Shown here: in pieces, positions 2,248 to 13,796 of the stretch
How positions within the stretch are numbered: position 1 is the first letter of the stretch
Layout of the letters: every line of letters begins with the position of its first letter
Assembly: GCA_020352575.1 (NCBI GenBank)
Contig: CP070681.1
Location: 864,159 to 878,189 of the forward strand
DNA from: Acidimicrobiia bacterium
GTDB taxonomy: Bacteria; Actinomycetota; Acidimicrobiia; Spongiisociales; JAENVV01
Direction: 5' to 3'
DNA: 14,031 bases
Program-made: the position numbers and the translations under genes
The notes under the pieces: generated by a model
Seen by the model: only the letters and a program-made list of their open reading frames with translations
Told to the model about the DNA's origin: nothing
Database searches by the model: none

Positions 2248-3060
2248 ATGCAGGTGAACGGCAAGGTCGTCGTGGTGACGGGTGGCGGGGACGGAATCGG
2301 GCGCCAGATCGTGACGCTCCTCCTGCAGAAGGGGGCACGGGTGGCTGCCGTCGACATCCGACAGGACGCCCTCGACGAGACGAGGGCCTCGGTCGGTGGA
2401 CACGCCGAGCGGCTCTCGACCCACGTCGCCGACATCACCGATCGCGAGCGCGTGTTCGCGTTGCCCGCCGAAGTGGAGGCGGCCCACGGACCCGTCGATG
2501 CAATCGTCAACAACGCAGGGGTCATCCAACCCTTCGTGCGGGTGCACGAACTCGAGATGGAAACGATCGATCGCGTCCTCGCCGTCAACCTCGTCGGTCC
2601 CGTCAACGTGACGAAGGCGTTCCTTCCGGGTCTCATGGCCCGGCCTGAGGCACACATCCTGAACGTCTCCAGCATGGGTGGGTTCCTCCCCGTGCCCGGC
2701 CAGGCGATCTACACCACGGCAAAGGCGGGCGTGAAGCTCTTCACCGAGGCGCTGCACTCCGAACTCGCCGGCACGAACGTAGGAGTGACGGTGGTCTTCC
2801 CTGGCGGTGTGGGAACGAGGATCAGCGAGAACTCGGGTGTCGAGGTTCCCGGGAACCTGTCCGAGGCGGAGGCCGAGAAGATGGCTGCCCGGACCACCTC
2901 TCCGGAAGAGGCAGCAAGGATCATCGTGGGTGGCATCGAGGAGGGTGCACAGCGCGTGCTCGTCGGGTCCGATGCGAAACTCATGGATCGCCTCTCCCGT
3001 TTGAACCCGAAGTTCGCCGCCGGGTTCATCACGAAGCAGATGAAGGACCTACTCGGCTGA
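2248..3060 (+). CDS. SDR-family oxidoreductase (classical, probably NAD-preferring)
   Basis: A 270-residue classical SDR with the glycine motif TGGGDGIG near residue 11, the VNNAG segment, the catalytic Ser142, and Tyr155-x-x-x-Lys159 (YTTAK). Strand beta-2 ends in an acidic residue (VAAVDIRQD), which in this superfamily usually means NAD(H) preference; this is inferred. The C-terminal 80 residues, with a VGSDAKLMDRLSRLNP segment, resemble longer actinobacterial SDRs that often sit among lipid or xenobiotic catabolism genes. The substrate cannot be named. The ATG is supported by AAAGGAG 6 nt upstream. The gene follows the first SDR by 44 nt but has its own -10-like sequence. Its last 12 bp overlap the convergent redoxin gene on the minus strand. 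Confidence 0.93.
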   Translation: MQVNGKVVVVTGGGDGIGRQIVTLLLQKGARVAAVDIRQDALDETRASVGGHAERLSTHVADITDRERVFALPAEVEAAHGPVDAIVNNAGVIQPFVRVHELEMETIDRVLAVNLVGPVNVTKAFLPGLMARPEAHILNVSSMGGFLPVPGQAIYTTAKAGVKLFTEALHSELAGTNVGVTVVFPGGVGTRISENSGVEVPGNLSEAEAEKMAARTTSPEEAARIIVGGIEEGAQRVLVGSDAKLMDRLSRLNPKFAAGFITKQMKDLLG

Positions 3061-3750
3061 CCGGTCCCGCAGTCGTCGGTGGAGGCCCTTGAGGGCCTCG
3101 ATGTAGCGGTCCATCTCGGCACCGTAGGCGATGGACTCGGCCTTGGCGGCCTCCCTGGCCTCGGGGATCGACCGCATGCGCAGGTACATGGCCATCGCGG
3201 CGAACTTGGCGCCCCTGAAGTAGGGCACGAGGTCGAGCCGTGCCATCGCCGCCGGTCCCGGTTCGGGCGTCCCGTTCACCATCGGCGTCGCACCGACGGG
3301 CTCGAGCCCGAGGCCTCGCGCTGCTGCAAGGACCTCGTCCTCGGGGATGCGATCGGCGTAGTCGCGGCTCACCCATCGCCACGCCTCCTCGCCGTCGGGC
3401 CCGACGATCACGATCGCCGGATATGCGAGCCCCCGGGCGTCGTCGGGGTTGGAGAGCCCGTACGGTGCGATCGCGCCGTCCCGGTCCGGGTCACTGAGGA
3501 AGGGGAACGGAAGGTCGAGCTTCTCGACCATCGCCGCGTGTTGGCCCGGGGAGTCGACATCGATGGCCACGATCCGGGTGCCCGCCGCCAGGAACTCGTC
3601 GTACAGCGCCGCCAAGCTGACCAGCTGGCCGTTGCAGTACGGTCACCAGTCGCCGCGGAGGAACAGCAGCAGCGTGGCGCCGTCGGGATGGTCGGAGAGC
3701 GTCCACGAGGTGCCGGATTGGTCGCGCAGGGTGAAGTCGGGGGCTGCCAT
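3049..3750 (-). CDS. Peroxiredoxin-like (AhpC/TSA) protein, candidate selenoprotein with in-frame UGA
   Basis: From ATG 3750 to TAG 3049 the frame holds 233 residues plus stop, interrupted once by TGA at 3645-3643 (codon 36). Residues before the TGA read DFTLRDQSGTSW and LLLFLRGDW; those after it read PYCNGQL. Together they form the RGDW-[C]-PYC redoxin active site of AhpC/TSA-like proteins, so the TGA replaces the first (peroxidatic or nucleophilic) cysteine, giving U36-P-Y-C39. The thioredoxin fold continues with VAIDVD, FPFLSDPD and a cis-Pro segment, AYPAIVIVGPDG. A helical tail of about 75 residues follows, whose role I cannot name. A SECIS-like hairpin lies just after the UGA. The expected role is thiol/selenol-dependent peroxide reduction in the cytoplasm. 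The start follows the crotonase stop by 11 nt, and a -10-like TAGGGT lies 8 nt upstream. Naive calling would start at TTG 3615 and lose the active site. A nonsense mutation is the alternative. Confidence 0.85.
3611..3629 (-). promoter_or_regulatory. Putative bacterial SECIS hairpin in the coding sequence
   Basis: Read on the minus strand, GCCAGCTGGTCAGCTTGGC folds as GCCA-GCU, loop GGUC, AGC-(U)-UGGC: seven base pairs with one bulged U (3615 or 3614) and a four-base loop (3622-3619). The loop starts 21 nt after the UGA. The E. coli fdhF SECIS likewise has a 3-bp apical stem capped by GGUC and a single bulged U, with the loop about 19 nt after its UGA. There, SelB contacts the loop G and U and the bulged U. 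Here the bulge is on the 3' side of the stem rather than the 5' side. The folding was done by hand. Confidence 0.75.
3643..3645 (-). other. Putative selenocysteine codon (UGA, residue 36)
   Basis: This TGA lies in the frame of the redoxin gene, which stays open for 35 codons before it and 197 codons after it. It occupies the first position of the CxxC-type active site, where homologous redoxins carry cysteine. The second cysteine (Cys39) is encoded by TGC at 3636-3634. Confidence 0.85.
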
Positions 3751-3758
3751 CGGCAGCG

Positions 3759-3764
3759 ACCCTA
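3759..3764 (-). promoter_or_regulatory. Putative -10 element (TAGGGT) of the redoxin gene, overlapping the upstream stop
   Basis: On the minus strand TAGGGT is followed by 8 nt and then ATG 3750. Its first three bases are the TAG stop of the crotonase-family gene. It could give the redoxin its own leaderless transcript in addition to read-through from the upstream gene. No other convincing ribosome binding site is present. Confidence 0.4.
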
Positions 3765-4562
3765 CCGGGCCCTTCGGAAGTCCGGCGGGCGCCGCTCGAT
3801 GAACGCCGCCATGCCCTCCATGAAGCCGGGCAGGTTCGGGAGCCGGCCGTTCTCATCGCGCTCCACGTCGAGTTGCTCGTCGAACGAGCGATCCATGCCG
3901 CCGTCGAGGATGGCCCTGATCGATCGCATCGCCTCCCGGTCGTAGGAGCCGAGTTGCCCGGCGAGCGAGCGGGTGACCTCGACCAGATCGCCGTCCGGGA
4001 CGCACTCCCAGATGAGGCCCCACTCCTTCGCGGTGGGTGCGGGCAGCTTGTCGCCGAGCATCATGAGCCCCCGGGCGCGGGCCGGCCCGATGAGTCGTGG
4101 GACCCACCAGGTGGAGCCGACATCGGGGACGAGCGCGAGTTGCGGGCCGAAGACCTGCACGAATGAGGCCGACTCGGCCGCAACCACGATGTCGCAGGCG
4201 AGGGCGAGCCCGATGCCACCTCCGGCCGCCACGCCGTTCACCGCCGCAACCGTCGGCTTGGATGACCCGGCGATGGCCCGGGCGCAGGGGTTCCACCACT
4301 CCTCGAGGACCCAGGCGACGCCCTCGCCGATCGTGAGGCCGTCGGGCCACCAGTTCCCGGCGGTCAGGTCGGCCCCGGCGCAGAAACCCCGACCCGCACC
4401 GGTGAGGAGGATGGCATCCACGGCGTCGTCGTGCTCAGCGGACTCCAGCGCCGCACGGAGGCCACCGAGGAGGTCCCGGTTGCCTGCATTCAGCACCTCT
4501 GGGCGGTTGAGCATGATCGTGGCGACTCCGTCGTCGACGGTGGTGAGGACGGCGTCGGACAT
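3762..4562 (-). CDS. Enoyl-CoA hydratase/isomerase (crotonase) family protein, isomerase-like active site
   Basis: A 266-residue crotonase-fold protein. The CoA/oxyanion-hole motifs are clear: GAGRGFCAGADL (55-66) and AVNGVAAGGGIGLALACD (107-124). Both glutamates of true enoyl-CoA hydratases (Glu144 and Glu164 in rat ECH) are absent: the aligned positions are Gly118 and Phe138. Instead LVPDVGST carries Asp147, which lines up with the catalytic Asp of PaaG and related enoyl-CoA isomerases. A double-bond isomerase acting in fatty-acid or aromatic catabolism is therefore likelier than a hydratase, with unknown substrate. The start ATG is preceded by GGGAGG 4 nt upstream. The gene is divergent from the MFS gene across 50 bp and leads directly into the redoxin gene. 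Confidence 0.92.
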   Translation of the reverse strand: MSDAVLTTVDDGVATIMLNRPEVLNAGNRDLLGGLRAALESAEHDDAVDAILLTGAGRGFCAGADLTAGNWWPDGLTIGEGVAWVLEEWWNPCARAIAGSSKPTVAAVNGVAAGGGIGLALACDIVVAAESASFVQVFGPQLALVPDVGSTWWVPRLIGPARARGLMMLGDKLPAPTAKEWGLIWECVPDGDLVEVTRSLAGQLGSYDREAMRSIRAILDGGMDRSFDEQLDVERDENGRLPNLPGFMEGMAAFIERRPPDFRRAR

Positions 4563-4612: not shown

Positions 4613-5776
4613 GTGTCCACGTCCTTCACCCGGGATCGGCTCACGCTCGTGCTCTACGCAACACTCGTCGCGTTCGGGTTCGCGATCGCGACGCTCGGGC
4701 CTTCCGTGCCGCTGCTCAGATCGGACCTCGGCGTCTCCCGCACCGTGGCGGGACTCCATTTCACCGCGGGCGCCCTCGGCTCGGTGTTCGTGGGCGTGGC
4801 CGGGCGCCGACTCGTCGTTCGTATCGGCCGGGCGGCGGTGCTGCGAAGCGGCCTCCTCGGGCTTGTCATCGGGCCCCTCGGCCTCGTGCTCGGGCAGTCG
4901 GCGAGGTGGACGATCGCAGGGACCTTCGCCGCCGGTCTCGCGGCCAACCTGGTCTTCCTCGTCGTGAACGGTGTCCTCGCCGACCATCACGGACCGCGTC
5001 GATCGACGGCACTTGCCGAGGCGAACGCCATCGCCGGGGCGGTGTTCATGCTGCCCGGACTCCTCGTGGGCGCCTTCGCCGCGGTCGGGATCTCGTGGAG
5101 GATCGCGTTCTTGGTTCCGGTCCTCGTGGCGCTGGTCCTCCTCCGGCCGACCTCGCGTTTGGCGCTCCCAGAGACCCCTCCCCCCACCGACGACACCAGT
5201 GGCCGGTTCCTCGCGGGATTCGGTGCCGCGGTGGCGGCCCTCACCCTCTCGGTCGCCATCGAGTGGTCGATGGCCGGGTGGGCAGCCGAGCACCTCGTCG
5301 GCGTCGGTGCCGCACCGGGCATGGCCGCCGCAGGCGCAGCCATCTTCTATGGGGCGGTGCTTGCAGGGAGACTCGCAGTGGTGCCGCTGACCCGCCGGTA
5401 CGCCGAGGGTCCACTCCTCTTCGCCTCGCTTGCCGTCACTGCGGCGGGCGCCCTCATCTTCTGGCTTGGCTCCTCCCCGGCGCTGGTGCTCGCAGGTGTC
5501 GTGCTCGGCGGTGTCGGCGTCTCCTATCAGTTCCCGTTGCTCGCCTCGGTCCTGTTCGCCCTGGCCCCGGGGAGGACGGATGCGGCGAGCGCCCGGATCA
5601 GCCTCGTTGGTGGCCTGGCCGTGATGACGGCACCGGTGACCCTTGGGGCGTGGGCCGATGCCCGCGGCCTCGAGGAGGCGTTGTCCGGTGTGGTGTTCCT
5701 CGTGGCTGCCCTCGCCGTGGCTCTCGCCTTCGTGCTCTGGGCGGCACGACGTCCCCCCGATAGGCTTCCAGCGTGA
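4613..5776 (+). CDS. MFS-family transporter
   Basis: A 387-residue, strongly hydrophobic protein with about 12 predicted transmembrane segments, the usual size for a major facilitator permease. The first segment is LTLVLYATLVAFGFAIATLG. The loop after the second segment reads AGRRLVVRIGRAAVLR, which corresponds to the MFS loop 2-3 basic motif. The substrate cannot be read from the sequence. The gene overlaps the nicotinate phosphoribosyltransferase gene by 4 bp (GTGA), and a nicotinamidase gene lies beyond, so niacin or a related compound is a plausible cargo by context only. I chose GTG 4613 because it follows TAGCGT by 7 nt and removes a polar, arginine-rich N-terminal stretch. An earlier GTG at 4574 would add 13 residues and run into the divergent promoter region. 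Confidence 0.85.
   Translation: MSTSFTRDRLTLVLYATLVAFGFAIATLGPSVPLLRSDLGVSRTVAGLHFTAGALGSVFVGVAGRRLVVRIGRAAVLRSGLLGLVIGPLGLVLGQSARWTIAGTFAAGLAANLVFLVVNGVLADHHGPRRSTALAEANAIAGAVFMLPGLLVGAFAAVGISWRIAFLVPVLVALVLLRPTSRLALPETPPPTDDTSGRFLAGFGAAVAALTLSVAIEWSMAGWAAEHLVGVGAAPGMAAAGAAIFYGAVLAGRLAVVPLTRRYAEGPLLFASLAVTAAGALIFWLGSSPALVLAGVVLGGVGVSYQFPLLASVLFALAPGRTDAASARISLVGGLAVMTAPVTLGAWADARGLEEALSGVVFLVAALAVALAFVLWAARRPPDRLPA
5761..5766 (+). promoter_or_regulatory. Putative -10 element (TAGGCT) of pncB, inside the MFS gene end
   Basis: TAGGCT is followed by 6 nt and the GTG start at 5773. It lies within the last codons of the MFS gene and could provide an independent leaderless transcript for nicotinate phosphoribosyltransferase. 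Confidence 0.4.
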
Positions 5777-7326
5777 CTCCTCCGCACCTGTCCGCCGGCA
5801 TCCTCGCCACGGACCAGTACCAACTCACGATGGCGCAGGTGTACTTCCGGCAGGGCCTCCACCAACGGCGTGCCCGGTTCGACTGGTTCTTCCGCTCGTA
5901 CCCCGACTACGGCGAACACCAGGCCGGGTATGCCATCACCGCCGGCCTCGAGTGGCTCGTGGAGTGGATGGAACGGACCGTCTTCACCGCCGACGACGTG
6001 GCCGCCCTCGCAGCCCAACGAACGGCCGGTGGGGACCCGCGGTTCGACGACGACTTCCTGTCCTGGATCGAGGGGCGCGGGTTCGATGACCTCACGGTGC
6101 ATGCCGTCCCCGAGGGCCGGGTGGTCCATGCCCACGTGCCGATCGTCATCGTCGACGGCCCGCTCGCCATGGCACAGATCCTCGAGACGGCGCTGCTCAA
6201 CCGCCTCAACTACCAGACCCTCATCGCCACCAAGGCGTCGAGGGTCAAGGAGGCCGCAAGGCAGGGTGCCGTGCTGGACTTCGGCCTGCGTCGTGCGCCC
6301 GACCTGGGTGGCGCTGCGGGGTCCCGGGCCGCCCTCATCGGTGGGGCCGACCATTCGTCGAATGTCGAGGTCTCGAACCTCCTCGGATTCGACCCGAAGG
6401 GAACCCATGCGCACAGCCTCGTGCAGGTGTTCATGGCGCTCGGGATGGGCGAGCTCGAGGCGTTCCGTGCGTTCGCCGGTCGGTATCCCGATGAGTGCGT
6501 GCTGCTCGTCGACACCGTCGACACGCTGGAGTCCGGGATCCCGAACGCGATCACCGTGTTCCGGGAGCTCGAAGCAGATGGGCACGTGCCGGTCGGCATC
6601 CGCCTCGACTCGGGTGACCTCGCCTACCTCGCGATCCGATCCGCCCAGATGCTCGATGACGCGGGCTTCCCGGAAGCTGGGATCGTCCTTTCGTCCGACC
6701 TCGATGAGCTTGCCATCTGGCAGATCCTCTCCCAGATCGACGTCGAGGCTCCTCGGTATGGCGTCGACCCGAGGAGGCTGGCTGCGCGCCTCACCTACGG
6801 CGTCGGCACCAGGCTCATCACGTCGGCGGGACACTCGGCCCTGAACGGCGTCTACAAGCTCGTTGCGATCGAGGGGGACGGCGGCGGCTGGCTTCCCGCC
6901 ATCAAGGTGTCCGAGAACCCGGTGAAGGTTCCCACGCCGGGCGAGAAGGAGGTCTGGCGGGTGTACGACGAGCGGGGGCTCGCCACGGCCGACGTGATCG
7001 GCGTCGCCGGCGAGGACCTCGACGGAACGAGCGATCTCCCCGTGCTGCACCCCCACCGAGCGGGCGTGCGCCGCACCATCCCGGCAGACCGTATCTCCTC
7101 GGTCGAGTCGCTCCTCGAGCCGGTGTTCGCCGATGGGGCCAGGATCGGCGCCCCATCATCCGTCGCCGAGATGCGGGCGCGGCGTGATGCGGACCTCGCC
7201 CGCCTCGACACCGGTGTGCGACGCATCGTGAACCCGCACATCTACCACGTGTCGCTCACCGAGCGGATGAAGCAGCTCCAGGCGTCGCTGATCGAGGACG
7301 CCCGCGACGGCGTGTTCGGGAACTAG
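5773..7326 (+). CDS. pncB: Nicotinate phosphoribosyltransferase
   Basis: A 517-residue cytoplasmic enzyme converting nicotinate and PRPP to nicotinate mononucleotide (Preiss-Handler NAD salvage). Family motifs run in order: the N-terminal ATDQYQLTMAQVYF; KEAARQGAVLDFGLRRA; GADHSSNVEVSNLLGFDPKG; and GTHAHS, with His212 in the region of the family's phosphorylated histidine. VGIRLDSGDLAYLAI, the phosphate-binding SSDLDE region and YGVGTRLITS follow. The length fits the longer NAPRTase subgroup. The start is GTG 5773, in a GTGA overlap with the MFS stop and 6 nt after TAGGCT. Its stop directly abuts the stop of the convergent nicotinamidase gene, which supplies its substrate. Confidence 0.96.
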   Translation: MTPPHLSAGILATDQYQLTMAQVYFRQGLHQRRARFDWFFRSYPDYGEHQAGYAITAGLEWLVEWMERTVFTADDVAALAAQRTAGGDPRFDDDFLSWIEGRGFDDLTVHAVPEGRVVHAHVPIVIVDGPLAMAQILETALLNRLNYQTLIATKASRVKEAARQGAVLDFGLRRAPDLGGAAGSRAALIGGADHSSNVEVSNLLGFDPKGTHAHSLVQVFMALGMGELEAFRAFAGRYPDECVLLVDTVDTLESGIPNAITVFRELEADGHVPVGIRLDSGDLAYLAIRSAQMLDDAGFPEAGIVLSSDLDELAIWQILSQIDVEAPRYGVDPRRLAARLTYGVGTRLITSAGHSALNGVYKLVAIEGDGGGWLPAIKVSENPVKVPTPGEKEVWRVYDERGLATADVIGVAGEDLDGTSDLPVLHPHRAGVRRTIPADRISSVESLLEPVFADGARIGAPSSVAEMRARRDADLARLDTGVRRIVNPHIYHVSLTERMKQLQASLIEDARDGVFGN

Positions 7327-7914
7327 TCAGACGACGGCGACGCCCGCCGCCACCAGGTCGGCGACCGCCCGAGCCCCGTCGCCCGGCCGGAGATTCACTG
7401 CTGCGGTTGCGTCGGCCACGACGGTCGTGGCGAAGCCGAGTCGGGCGGCATCGAGTGCGGTGTCCCGGACGCAGTAGTCGAGGGCGAGGCCGACCACGAC
7501 GACATCGGTGGCGCCCCGGGCACGGAGCTCCTCCCCGAGTTCGGTGGGTGTGTCCTCGCCCGACGCGGGATCTCGCATGGTGAATCCCGAGTACCCGTCC
7601 TCGCCCCCGACGCCCTTGCGAACGACCGGTGCACCCTCGACGACGAGGAGGTCCGGATGGAACGTGGACCCGTCGGTTCCGCCGACGCAGTGCACCGGCC
7701 AGATGCCGCCGTCCTTGGCGAAGTGCGGCGTCGAGGGTGGATGCCAATCCTGGGTGTAGGCGACGGTGGCGCCGGCGTCCGTCGCCTCGGCGATGAGCTC
7801 GTTCACCAAGGGGATCGTCGCCGGGCCGCCCGTCACGAACAGGCTTCCCGATGGGTCTGTGAAGTCGTGTTGGACGTCGACCACGACGAGCGCGGTGGTG
7901 GGGGAGAACTCCAT
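7327..7914 (-). CDS. pncA: Nicotinamidase
   Basis: A 195-residue isochorismatase-fold amidase that hydrolyses nicotinamide to nicotinate and ammonia. The catalytic triad is visible as Asp13 (VVDVQHDF), Lys100 (VVRKG) and Cys148 (GLALDYCVRDTA). The metal-binding set is Asp56, His58 and His64 in QDWHPPSTPHF. All expected residues are present. It lies 3 nt-adjacent to the pgl stop region, and its start ATG 7914 follows TAGCCT by 6 nt, so it is probably leaderless. Its stop abuts that of pncB with no intergenic base, so the two successive steps of NAD salvage are encoded convergently. PncA of this type activates pyrazinamide in mycobacteria, which is family knowledge and not shown here. Confidence 0.96.
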   Translation of the reverse strand: MEFSPTTALVVVDVQHDFTDPSGSLFVTGGPATIPLVNELIAEATDAGATVAYTQDWHPPSTPHFAKDGGIWPVHCVGGTDGSTFHPDLLVVEGAPVVRKGVGGEDGYSGFTMRDPASGEDTPTELGEELRARGATDVVVVGLALDYCVRDTALDAARLGFATTVVADATAAVNLRPGDGARAVADLVAAGVAVV

Positions 7915-12260: not shown

Positions 12261-13796
12261 GTGCGCCGGATCCTTGTCGTCGCGCTCGTCGGCGTGGCCT
12301 TCCTCACCGGACTTCCGGCTGCCGCGACCGTGGACGACGCGCTGTACGCCGACGAGGTCACCATCGTCGGAGCCGGCGGCCCGATGGAGTTCAACGGCAG
12401 GCGCTACGGCGGCACCTTCTCGGTGCGCGTGGTGGGCGACCGGGTGGTGCTCACCGAACGGGTCGACCCGGACGCCTACATGCGAGGGATCCGTGAGGTG
12501 CCGGCGTCGTGGGAGCCCGCTGCACTGCGCGCCCAGGCGATCGCGGCCCGCACGTACCTTGCATGGCGCCTCGATCGGGGTCGGTCGACGAGCGGCCAAC
12601 GGTACGGCTACGACATCTGCGCCACGGCCGCGTGCCAGGTGTACCGTGGAGGGGTCGGCGAGCCGGGGGCGGCGGAGTGGGATGCGGCCGTGGCGGCGAC
12701 CGCCGGGGAGATCCTGCTCCACGATGGGGCGCCTGCCCAAGCGATGTACTCGTCGACGACGAGTGGACGCACCCGCAACTTCGAGGACGTCTTCGGTGGG
12801 ACCCCCAAGCCCTACCTGGTGTCCGTCCCCTCGCCGAACGAGCCATCTCCCTACGTCAGGTGGACGATCGACGTGACGCAGGCGGAGATGCGAGCCATCC
12901 TCCGGGAGGCCGGCATCAGCGCAGAGTTGCTCAACCTCCGGGTCGAGACGACGGCGGACGGCAACGGACCGTGGATCGTGGAGGGTGTCTTCACCGATGG
13001 CCTGCGGTCGTGGACGTCATGGCAGTTCCGCAGCCTCATGAACCGACACGCCGACGACGCGCTCCCGGACGACTTCCCGGCCCTGCGCCCCGATGGGCGC
13101 CGGTATCCGACCACGATCCTCGGTCCGACCTACACGGTGGTGCGCGGCCTGCGCTATGACGCCGCCGTTACGACCGGCCCGCCCCTCGTCGGGGTGTACT
13201 CGTTCGTCGGCGGAGGGTGGGGCCACGACGTCGGGATGAGCCAATTCGGGGCGCAGGCCATGGCGCTCGAAGGGTCGAGCCATGAGGAGATCCTTGCGCA
13301 CTACTACTCCGACCTCGTGCCGAGCCAGGCCGGGCGGTTCCTCCCCTCCCAACTCGTCGTCGGGCTCTCCTTCACCTCCGATCCCGTGGAGGTCGGAGGG
13401 ACGTTGGCCGTGTCGATCGATGGAGCCCCGATCGCCGATGGCGTCGAGGGCTCGTGGCGATTCGAGTCGACGGGGGCGCAGGTTCGGATCATCCCGCCCG
13501 TGGCGTTCGGGGTGGCCCCGTCGCTGTCCGAGGCTGCCACAGAGGTCACGTCGACGGCACCCCTCGTCGTCGTCGCCAAGCCCGAGGGGGGTGGTCAGGT
13601 CCGACTCGTGGTCTTCGAGGGAGGCACCCCGGTCTTCCGCACGGCGTGGGAGAATTGGTTCGGTGGGACGATCGTGTTCGCCCCTCCGGGCCTCCGTGGG
13701 GGAGAGGGCGTGCGGGTCGCGGTCGAACGTCGGGAGGCGGTGGACGGCCCGACCACGGTGGTCCCGGTCACCCCGGGCTTCATCCGCTGGGGCTAG
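12261..13796 (+). CDS. Secreted SpoIID/LytB-domain protein (putative peptidoglycan lytic transglycosylase)
   Basis: A 511-residue exported protein. Residues 1-22 form a signal peptide ([22 protein letters not shown]). A SpoIID domain follows: the [19 protein letters not shown] block, then [14 protein letters not shown]. Glu79 stands at the position of the catalytic Glu in B. subtilis SpoIID. Next come [33 protein letters not shown], and the closing [19 protein letters not shown] with ILAHYYSDL. The last 130 residues or so are beta-rich and unassigned, possibly a wall-binding or structural domain. SpoIID cleaves glycan strands lacking stem peptides during sporulation in Firmicutes; in non-sporulating actinobacteria homologues probably act in wall remodelling (inference). 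GTG 12261 lies 2 nt after the murA stop with no ribosome binding site, implying coupled translation. Confidence 0.9.

Follow-up and report, generated by a model that had tools for sequence, protein, structure and literature searches.

Selenoproteins of the peroxiredoxin-like (Prx-like) type, in which selenocysteine (Sec, U) opens a UxxC motif, are a listed kind in PMC13188914 (Table 1), PMC2398784 (Table 2), PMC5029168 and PMC1794560. They include the Prx-like thiol:disulfide oxidoreductases with UxxC or UxxU motifs ('Prx-like 1' of the Global Ocean Sampling (GOS) survey), for which Cys homologues are known (PMC13188914 Table 1, PMC2398784 Table 2). The table of the first of these sources, a review, also contains redoxin selenoproteins of cd02970 (UxxS) and a UxxC protein of PF08534 (HEU0032618.1). 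We studied a redoxin gene in a stretch of 14,031 nucleotides, hereafter the window, from an Acidimicrobiia bacterium (assembly GCA_020352575.1, contig CP070681.1, positions 864,159 to 878,189 of the forward strand). The locus very probably encodes a selenoprotein, namely a redoxin of peroxiredoxin fold with a helical tail, whose residue 36 is Sec inserted by means of SelB and a bacterial selenocysteine insertion sequence (bSECIS). As far as sequence comparison reaches, this is strongly supported by a conserved UGA, exchange of Sec with Cys, constraint on the nucleotides downstream, the presence of SelB and SelD, and the predicted fold; from these we infer the insertion of Sec, the chemistry, the reductant and a role of the tail. 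A preliminary description of the window had proposed such a selenoprotein and had called UxxC redoxins a known type, which agrees with the review table.

The window family has PF00578 and Sec in UxxC in common with 'Prx-like 1' and differs from it in having the motif RGD[WF]UxYC and, at the C-terminus, a helical hairpin; the comparison is by description, and the family may be included in published ones. Also by description, the PF08534 UxxC protein, which shares a PF08534 match with the window protein, may belong to the same family, whereas the cd02970 proteins have UxxS instead of UxxC. Selenoperoxiredoxin (PrxU, TxxU) has the same fold, but in the window protein Sec stands at the Thr position of TxxC and not at the peroxidatic one, and the PrxU model NF040737 gave 26.1 against a cut-off of 270. 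By E-value the best NCBIfam match was the SelL-related NF040769, at 47.9 bits and below its cut-off of 120. The SelL motif is UxxU, whereas the window family has one Sec, in UxxC. ResA/TlpA proteins carry CxxC at the same place and match in sequence over residues 2-90, but the ResA model, whose cut-off is 170, reached 38.2 bits, and the window family has Sec and the added tail. All NCBIfam models listed for the window protein stayed below their cut-offs; for the remaining 66 proteins in the alignment, best E-values served as the measure. UxxC Prx-like selenoproteins are already known, and the window family looks like an unnamed subfamily of them. No publication on this family in Acidimicrobiia was found in a literature search whose scope left aside supplements and most subscription papers.

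The minus-strand frame from ATG 3750 to TAG 3049 contained a single internal stop, the TGA at codon 36, exactly where the preliminary description had placed it (3645-3643). Translated with TGA kept as U, the residues around it read LLLFLRGDW-U-PYCNGQLVSLA. The features of the gene were as follows:

3049..3750, minus strand: very probable selenoprotein gene, 233 residues, ATG 3750 to TAG 3049 (translation, Pfam, 44 loci)
3643..3645, minus strand: putative Sec codon UGA, residue U36, opening the U-P-Y-C motif (translation and relatives)
3634..3636, minus strand: Cys39 codon TGC, second half of UxxC, aligned to the peroxidatic Cys of peroxiredoxins (alignment)
3611..3629, minus strand: apical hairpin of the predicted bSECIS, GCCAGCU-GGUC-AGC-U-UGGC, with 7 pairs and one bulged base
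3301..3750, minus strand: predicted peroxiredoxin-fold domain, residues 1-150
3055..3240, minus strand: predicted C-terminal helical hairpin, residues 171-232, with a conserved YFRGAxFAAxAM motif
3049..3615, minus strand: open reading frame (ORF) of 188 aa with a TTG start and without the active site, as given by mechanical gene calling

The AhpC-TSA model of Pfam (PF00578) matched residues 2-120 with 95.1 bits, and PF08534 (redoxin) matched the protein as well (59.3 bits). Since the AhpC-TSA match covers residues 2-120, the similarity crosses the TGA, in agreement with the earlier statement that it is continuous, with RGDW directly before this codon and PYCNGQL directly after it; the TGA does occupy the first residue of a CxxC-type active site (U36-P-Y-C39), as had been said. 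It had also been foreseen that annotation would cut the protein to TTG 3615 and lose the active site, and this is what the 188-aa ORF call and a database copy (P0002, 188 aa, identical TTG start, 99% identity) display.

Homologues were searched in 59 genomes of the order, 395 of the class and 396 of the phylum. At E 1e-20 or better, a homologue was present in 43 of the 395 class genomes, with 45 match rows, 43 of which cover residue 36; the other two (G319 and G352:C179) begin at residues 65 and 78, short of the site. Together with one contig-end fragment from the order search, these 43 rows make up the 44 loci that were read. All 44, a share far beyond chance, have TGA at the same codon, within RGD[WF]-U-[PTAS]-Y-C, and in none does another stop precede the terminal one. 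Group A, the window-like sequences, comprises 38 loci with full flanks plus the fragment, and group B five loci with the motif YRGDWUPYCC[GA]Q. An in-frame TGA, one base change from TGC or TGT, could also arise through a nonsense mutation or a sequencing error if the gene were decaying or wrongly assembled, and no tRNA-Sec was found in the host assembly. Conservation of the TGA in 44 of 44 loci, with no extra stop before the terminal one, refutes this explanation, the codons downstream are under constraint (see below), and we give it practically no weight. The preliminary description had already judged a random nonsense mutation unlikely, and the unrelated premature stops in close relatives that it named as contrary evidence are absent from the 44 loci.

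Weaker matches of the order search (about E 1e-15 and worse) were different redoxins, most of which lacked an inner stop; the matches of the phylum search were read down to about E 1e-20. A scan of genome contigs yielded no more than 4 loci, of which three were close. One of the different redoxins, L041 (G042:C43, 1501-1959, plus strand), had an in-frame TGA at the active-site position (FDFGNI-U-SHEL) besides its terminal TGA and probably represents a second Sec redoxin family in the order; other order-search matches with two TGA codons may belong to the same type.

Among database proteins, 362 matched at E 1e-10 or better. The active-site motif was absent from 118 of the 120 listed, whose lengths fit starts past the UGA. 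The only two reaching it, P0015 and P0019 (JGI), were read as protein sequences and have Trp at the site, the residue that a gene call with TGA read as Trp would give. Gene finders thus strip the active site from this family, and selenoprotein models that include it could recover many enzymes, perhaps hundreds. A Cys form of group A was not found in a search with residues 1-75, which returned 4 matches; P0015 alone of these shows the motif, with Trp.

Replacement of the residue was seen in family f71 of the phylum search. TGA occupied the site in 17 distinct f71 sequences, and the 12 f71 genes without TGA that were read had Cys (9), Ser (2) or Asp (1). The alignment of homologues at U36 suggested by the preliminary description therefore gave Sec (TGA) or Cys at the exact codon. 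Asp stands at the Sec/Cys position in L197, and Ser in L199, L208 and P0122, the last being a database homologue of group B. The second Cys was also lost in L207 (Cys at the first position) and L208 (Ser), both with Asp at 39. These exchanges bear on the idea that UGA is read as Trp or another residue, by readthrough or under a changed code, which the Trp of P0015 and P0019 would favour. None of the 12 f71 genes without TGA has a Trp codon at the site, and TGA is the terminal stop of 6 of the 12 window genes checked, so that it is an ordinary stop codon there; the genome has SelB and SelD, and the gene a SECIS-like hairpin. Such decoding was therefore rejected, since TGA is an ordinary stop in the window and Cys is the main replacement at the site, and we hold it to be very improbable.

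Sec and Cys genes occur together in three genomes, G465, G650 and G731, which are metagenome-assembled genomes with contamination of 1, 2 and 6%. A tree was built from 72 proteins, with two short Sec rows and L202, L204, L205, L207, L208 and L209 excluded. In it the 8 Cys rows and 2 other rows all fell inside one f71 subclade, the remaining 62 of the 72 rows being Sec, and the fewest changes that explain Sec were 2. As the root of this tree is unknown, we only infer that Sec is the older state.

Thirteen nucleotides past the UGA begins the window hairpin, with its loop GGUC 20 nt past the UGA. It agrees with the bSECIS rule of PMC13188914 on loop size, on a G at loop position one or two, on the stem and on the spacing of 16-37 nt. 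Synonymous codon variety was measured in 36 group A genes. At residues 39-46 it was 0.28 of expectation (5 residues) against 0.92 at the remaining conserved positions (79 residues; p = 1.3e-4), and over the wider span 37-48 it was 0.51 against 0.91 (p = 0.027); Ser45 was AGC in 29 of 29 and Gln42 CAG in 36 of 36. Across 38 group A sequences 96.2% of the cells of the hairpin pair, and five cells had compensating changes on both sides, compared with 0.8 in shuffles. Mean best-hairpin energies were far lower than those of synonymous recodings generated with the codon usage of groups A and B: -7.8 versus -2.6 in group A, -9.5 versus -4.0 in group B, -5.7 versus -1.4 in the f71 Sec genes and -8.9 versus -2.5 in other Sec genes. 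Ten non-Sec genes stayed near their recodings (-1.6 versus -1.2). Within f71 all 17 distinct Sec genes retained the hairpin, whereas of the 12 non-Sec genes 2 did (p = 3.3e-6).

Several observations weigh against the selenoprotein interpretation. The compensating changes are confined to one stem pair; the choice of residues 39-46 as the span, like that of the hairpin rule for f71, was made once the Sec genes had been seen, and the sequences and genomes compared are related. The free energy of the 46 nt window element is -17.8 kcal/mol, and that of the isolated hairpin, -7.3 kcal/mol, falls slightly short of the published bSECIS threshold of -7.5. Only 27 of 65 Sec genes pass this threshold as an isolated hairpin, compared with 6.9 of 65 expected by recoding, and in f71 0 of 15 do. 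Folding of the whole window element is unexceptional against dinucleotide shuffles (z -1.06), a null that separated poorly, whereas synonymous recoding did separate. The RNAalifold consensus is limited to a 4-pair stem, whether computed on all groups or on group A alone, one pair of the window-type hairpin is broken in seven members, and the seven RGDFU genes fold into another hairpin, with an AGUU loop. Two distant phylum copies look damaged. L196 (family f91; G683:C139, 1501-2109, plus strand) keeps the Sec motif intact, but continues in a wrong frame for ~45 residues, after which the similarity returns, the result either of two compensating indels or of assembly errors. L209 (f71; G668:C75, ~position 766, minus strand) has a tandem-duplicated active site, RGDWUPDWUPDCNG, with two TGA and one TAG, and is probably a decayed Sec gene. 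Finally, SelA and tRNA-Sec were not found in the host genome, a gapped assembly that is 69% complete.

This assembly consists of one scaffold of 1.70 Mb with 100-N gaps. The search for Sec genes called for in the preliminary description succeeded for selB (266.9 bits, cut-off 242.25) and selD (206.1 bits, cut-off 125) and not for selA and tRNA(Sec); the apparent tRNA-Sec matches were Leu, Cys, Thr, Asp, Glu and His tRNAs. A complete genome lacking selB and selC, which that description had set against the proposal, is thus not what we have, the genome being incomplete and SelB present. The frames of selB and selD both abut 100-N gaps. The selA gene of relatives ends a short way upstream of selB, and in the host a gap cuts selB at that end. 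With the host genome (G000) counted, tRNA-Sec scored over the cut-off in 48 of the 59 genomes of the order search, and SelA was found in 19 of 21 genomes of a search among relatives; the anticodon was TCA in all seven tRNA-Sec loci examined by ARAGORN. The missing SelA and tRNA-Sec would be expected if the window species had lost Sec decoding and made only a truncated product from a gene that is a Sec gene in its relatives. Retention of SelB and SelD at gap-bordering positions, selB at its selA end, and of the intact hairpin and full frame speaks against such a loss, which we consider very unlikely, if slightly less so than the reading of UGA as Trp.

Decoding and redoxin were also associated across the 395 class genomes: tRNA-Sec was detected in 37 of the 43 genomes with the redoxin and in 209 of the 352 without it (Fisher p = 4e-4), which, as the genomes are related and the survey scored few tRNA candidates per genome, is support and not proof. 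Besides the host, five genomes with the Sec redoxin (G260, G278, G352, G358 and G362) gave no tRNA-Sec match in this survey; they are 75-93% complete, and incompleteness is the likely cause.

The product would combine a peroxiredoxin-fold redoxin with a C-terminal helical hairpin, the long helical tail of the preliminary description. The hairpin alone matched no Pfam family in the window protein and single weak ones in 3 of 32 members (best E 0.066), and Foldseek returned no match below E 0.001; a two-helix hairpin is too plain for this to mean a new fold. The assignment to AhpC/TSA-like redoxins held for fold and domain and failed for the catalytic residues of peroxiredoxins. In an alignment with 2cx3 the PxxxT/SxxC motif and the catalytic Arg were missing, with R32 at the Pro, U36 at the Thr/Ser and P111 at the Arg position, only C39 being kept. 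Given UxxC and a proline in place of the peroxidase residues, we read the protein as a putative thiol:disulfide oxidoreductase, judged by sequence a better name than peroxiredoxin; most likely it would exchange thiols and disulfides and not act as a classical peroxidase. Alternatively, the selenoprotein could be a peroxidase: Sec36 would react with hydroperoxides in the way known from glutathione peroxidase, and the resulting selenenic acid would be resolved by Cys39. The three substituted positions follow the CxxC-plus-proline pattern of thioredoxin-like oxidoreductases, and we regard peroxidase activity as possible, though doubtful. For the oxidoreductase, the proposed course is that UGA 36 would be read as Sec by SelB with Sec-tRNA(Sec), directed by the bSECIS hairpin past the UGA. 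Sec36, probably the attacking residue of the U-P-Y-C pair, would form a selenenylsulfide with Cys39 and could be regenerated by a thioredoxin- or mycothiol-type reductant.

A wider scenario can be put forward tentatively. Sec may be the old state in the redoxin lineage of the phylum, as almost all members found, from many families, have it; Cys, and then Ser or Asp, would be later replacements in one subclade, where some members lost the second Cys and the SECIS decays in parallel. In that case the combination of Sec pair and helical tail may be the mark of a single enzyme, as yet without a name, that works with a dedicated partner, and these bacteria may keep Sec decoding partly on account of this family. 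With Sec and Cys genes of one family, both present in three genomes, and a hairpin that is kept in the former and mostly decayed in the latter, the cost and benefit of Sec become testable by exchange.

Searches of the window for tRNA genes found none, an Rfam search of the window gave no match above the gathering score, and a plasmid search with the redoxin gene gave no match. Directly upstream of the redoxin gene, and possibly co-transcribed with it, lies the following gene:

3762..4562, minus strand: enoyl-CoA hydratase/isomerase gene, on the same strand as the redoxin gene and separated from it by a gap of 11 nt

No recurring neighbour was found across the redoxin groups, this gene included. 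Comparison of gene neighbourhoods did place one redoxin subgroup ahead of Fe-S genes. In the seven RGDFU members (L107-L110 and L119-L121) the redoxin is followed by one conserved frame on the same strand, which in L120, where it was examined, has a CCG domain (PF02754); in six of the seven a further downstream frame resembles, by eye, LutB of lactate utilisation.

Elsewhere in the window, a SpoIID-domain protein (PF08486, 62.7 bits; 12279-13793, plus strand) adjoins a gene that resembles MurA by eye. A nicotinate phosphoribosyltransferase gene (5773-7326, plus strand) lies end to end with an isochorismatase-family, nicotinamidase-like gene (7327-7914, minus strand), and both have homologues in L123 and L124, where they lie downstream of the redoxin at a distance of 3.6-5.5 kb.
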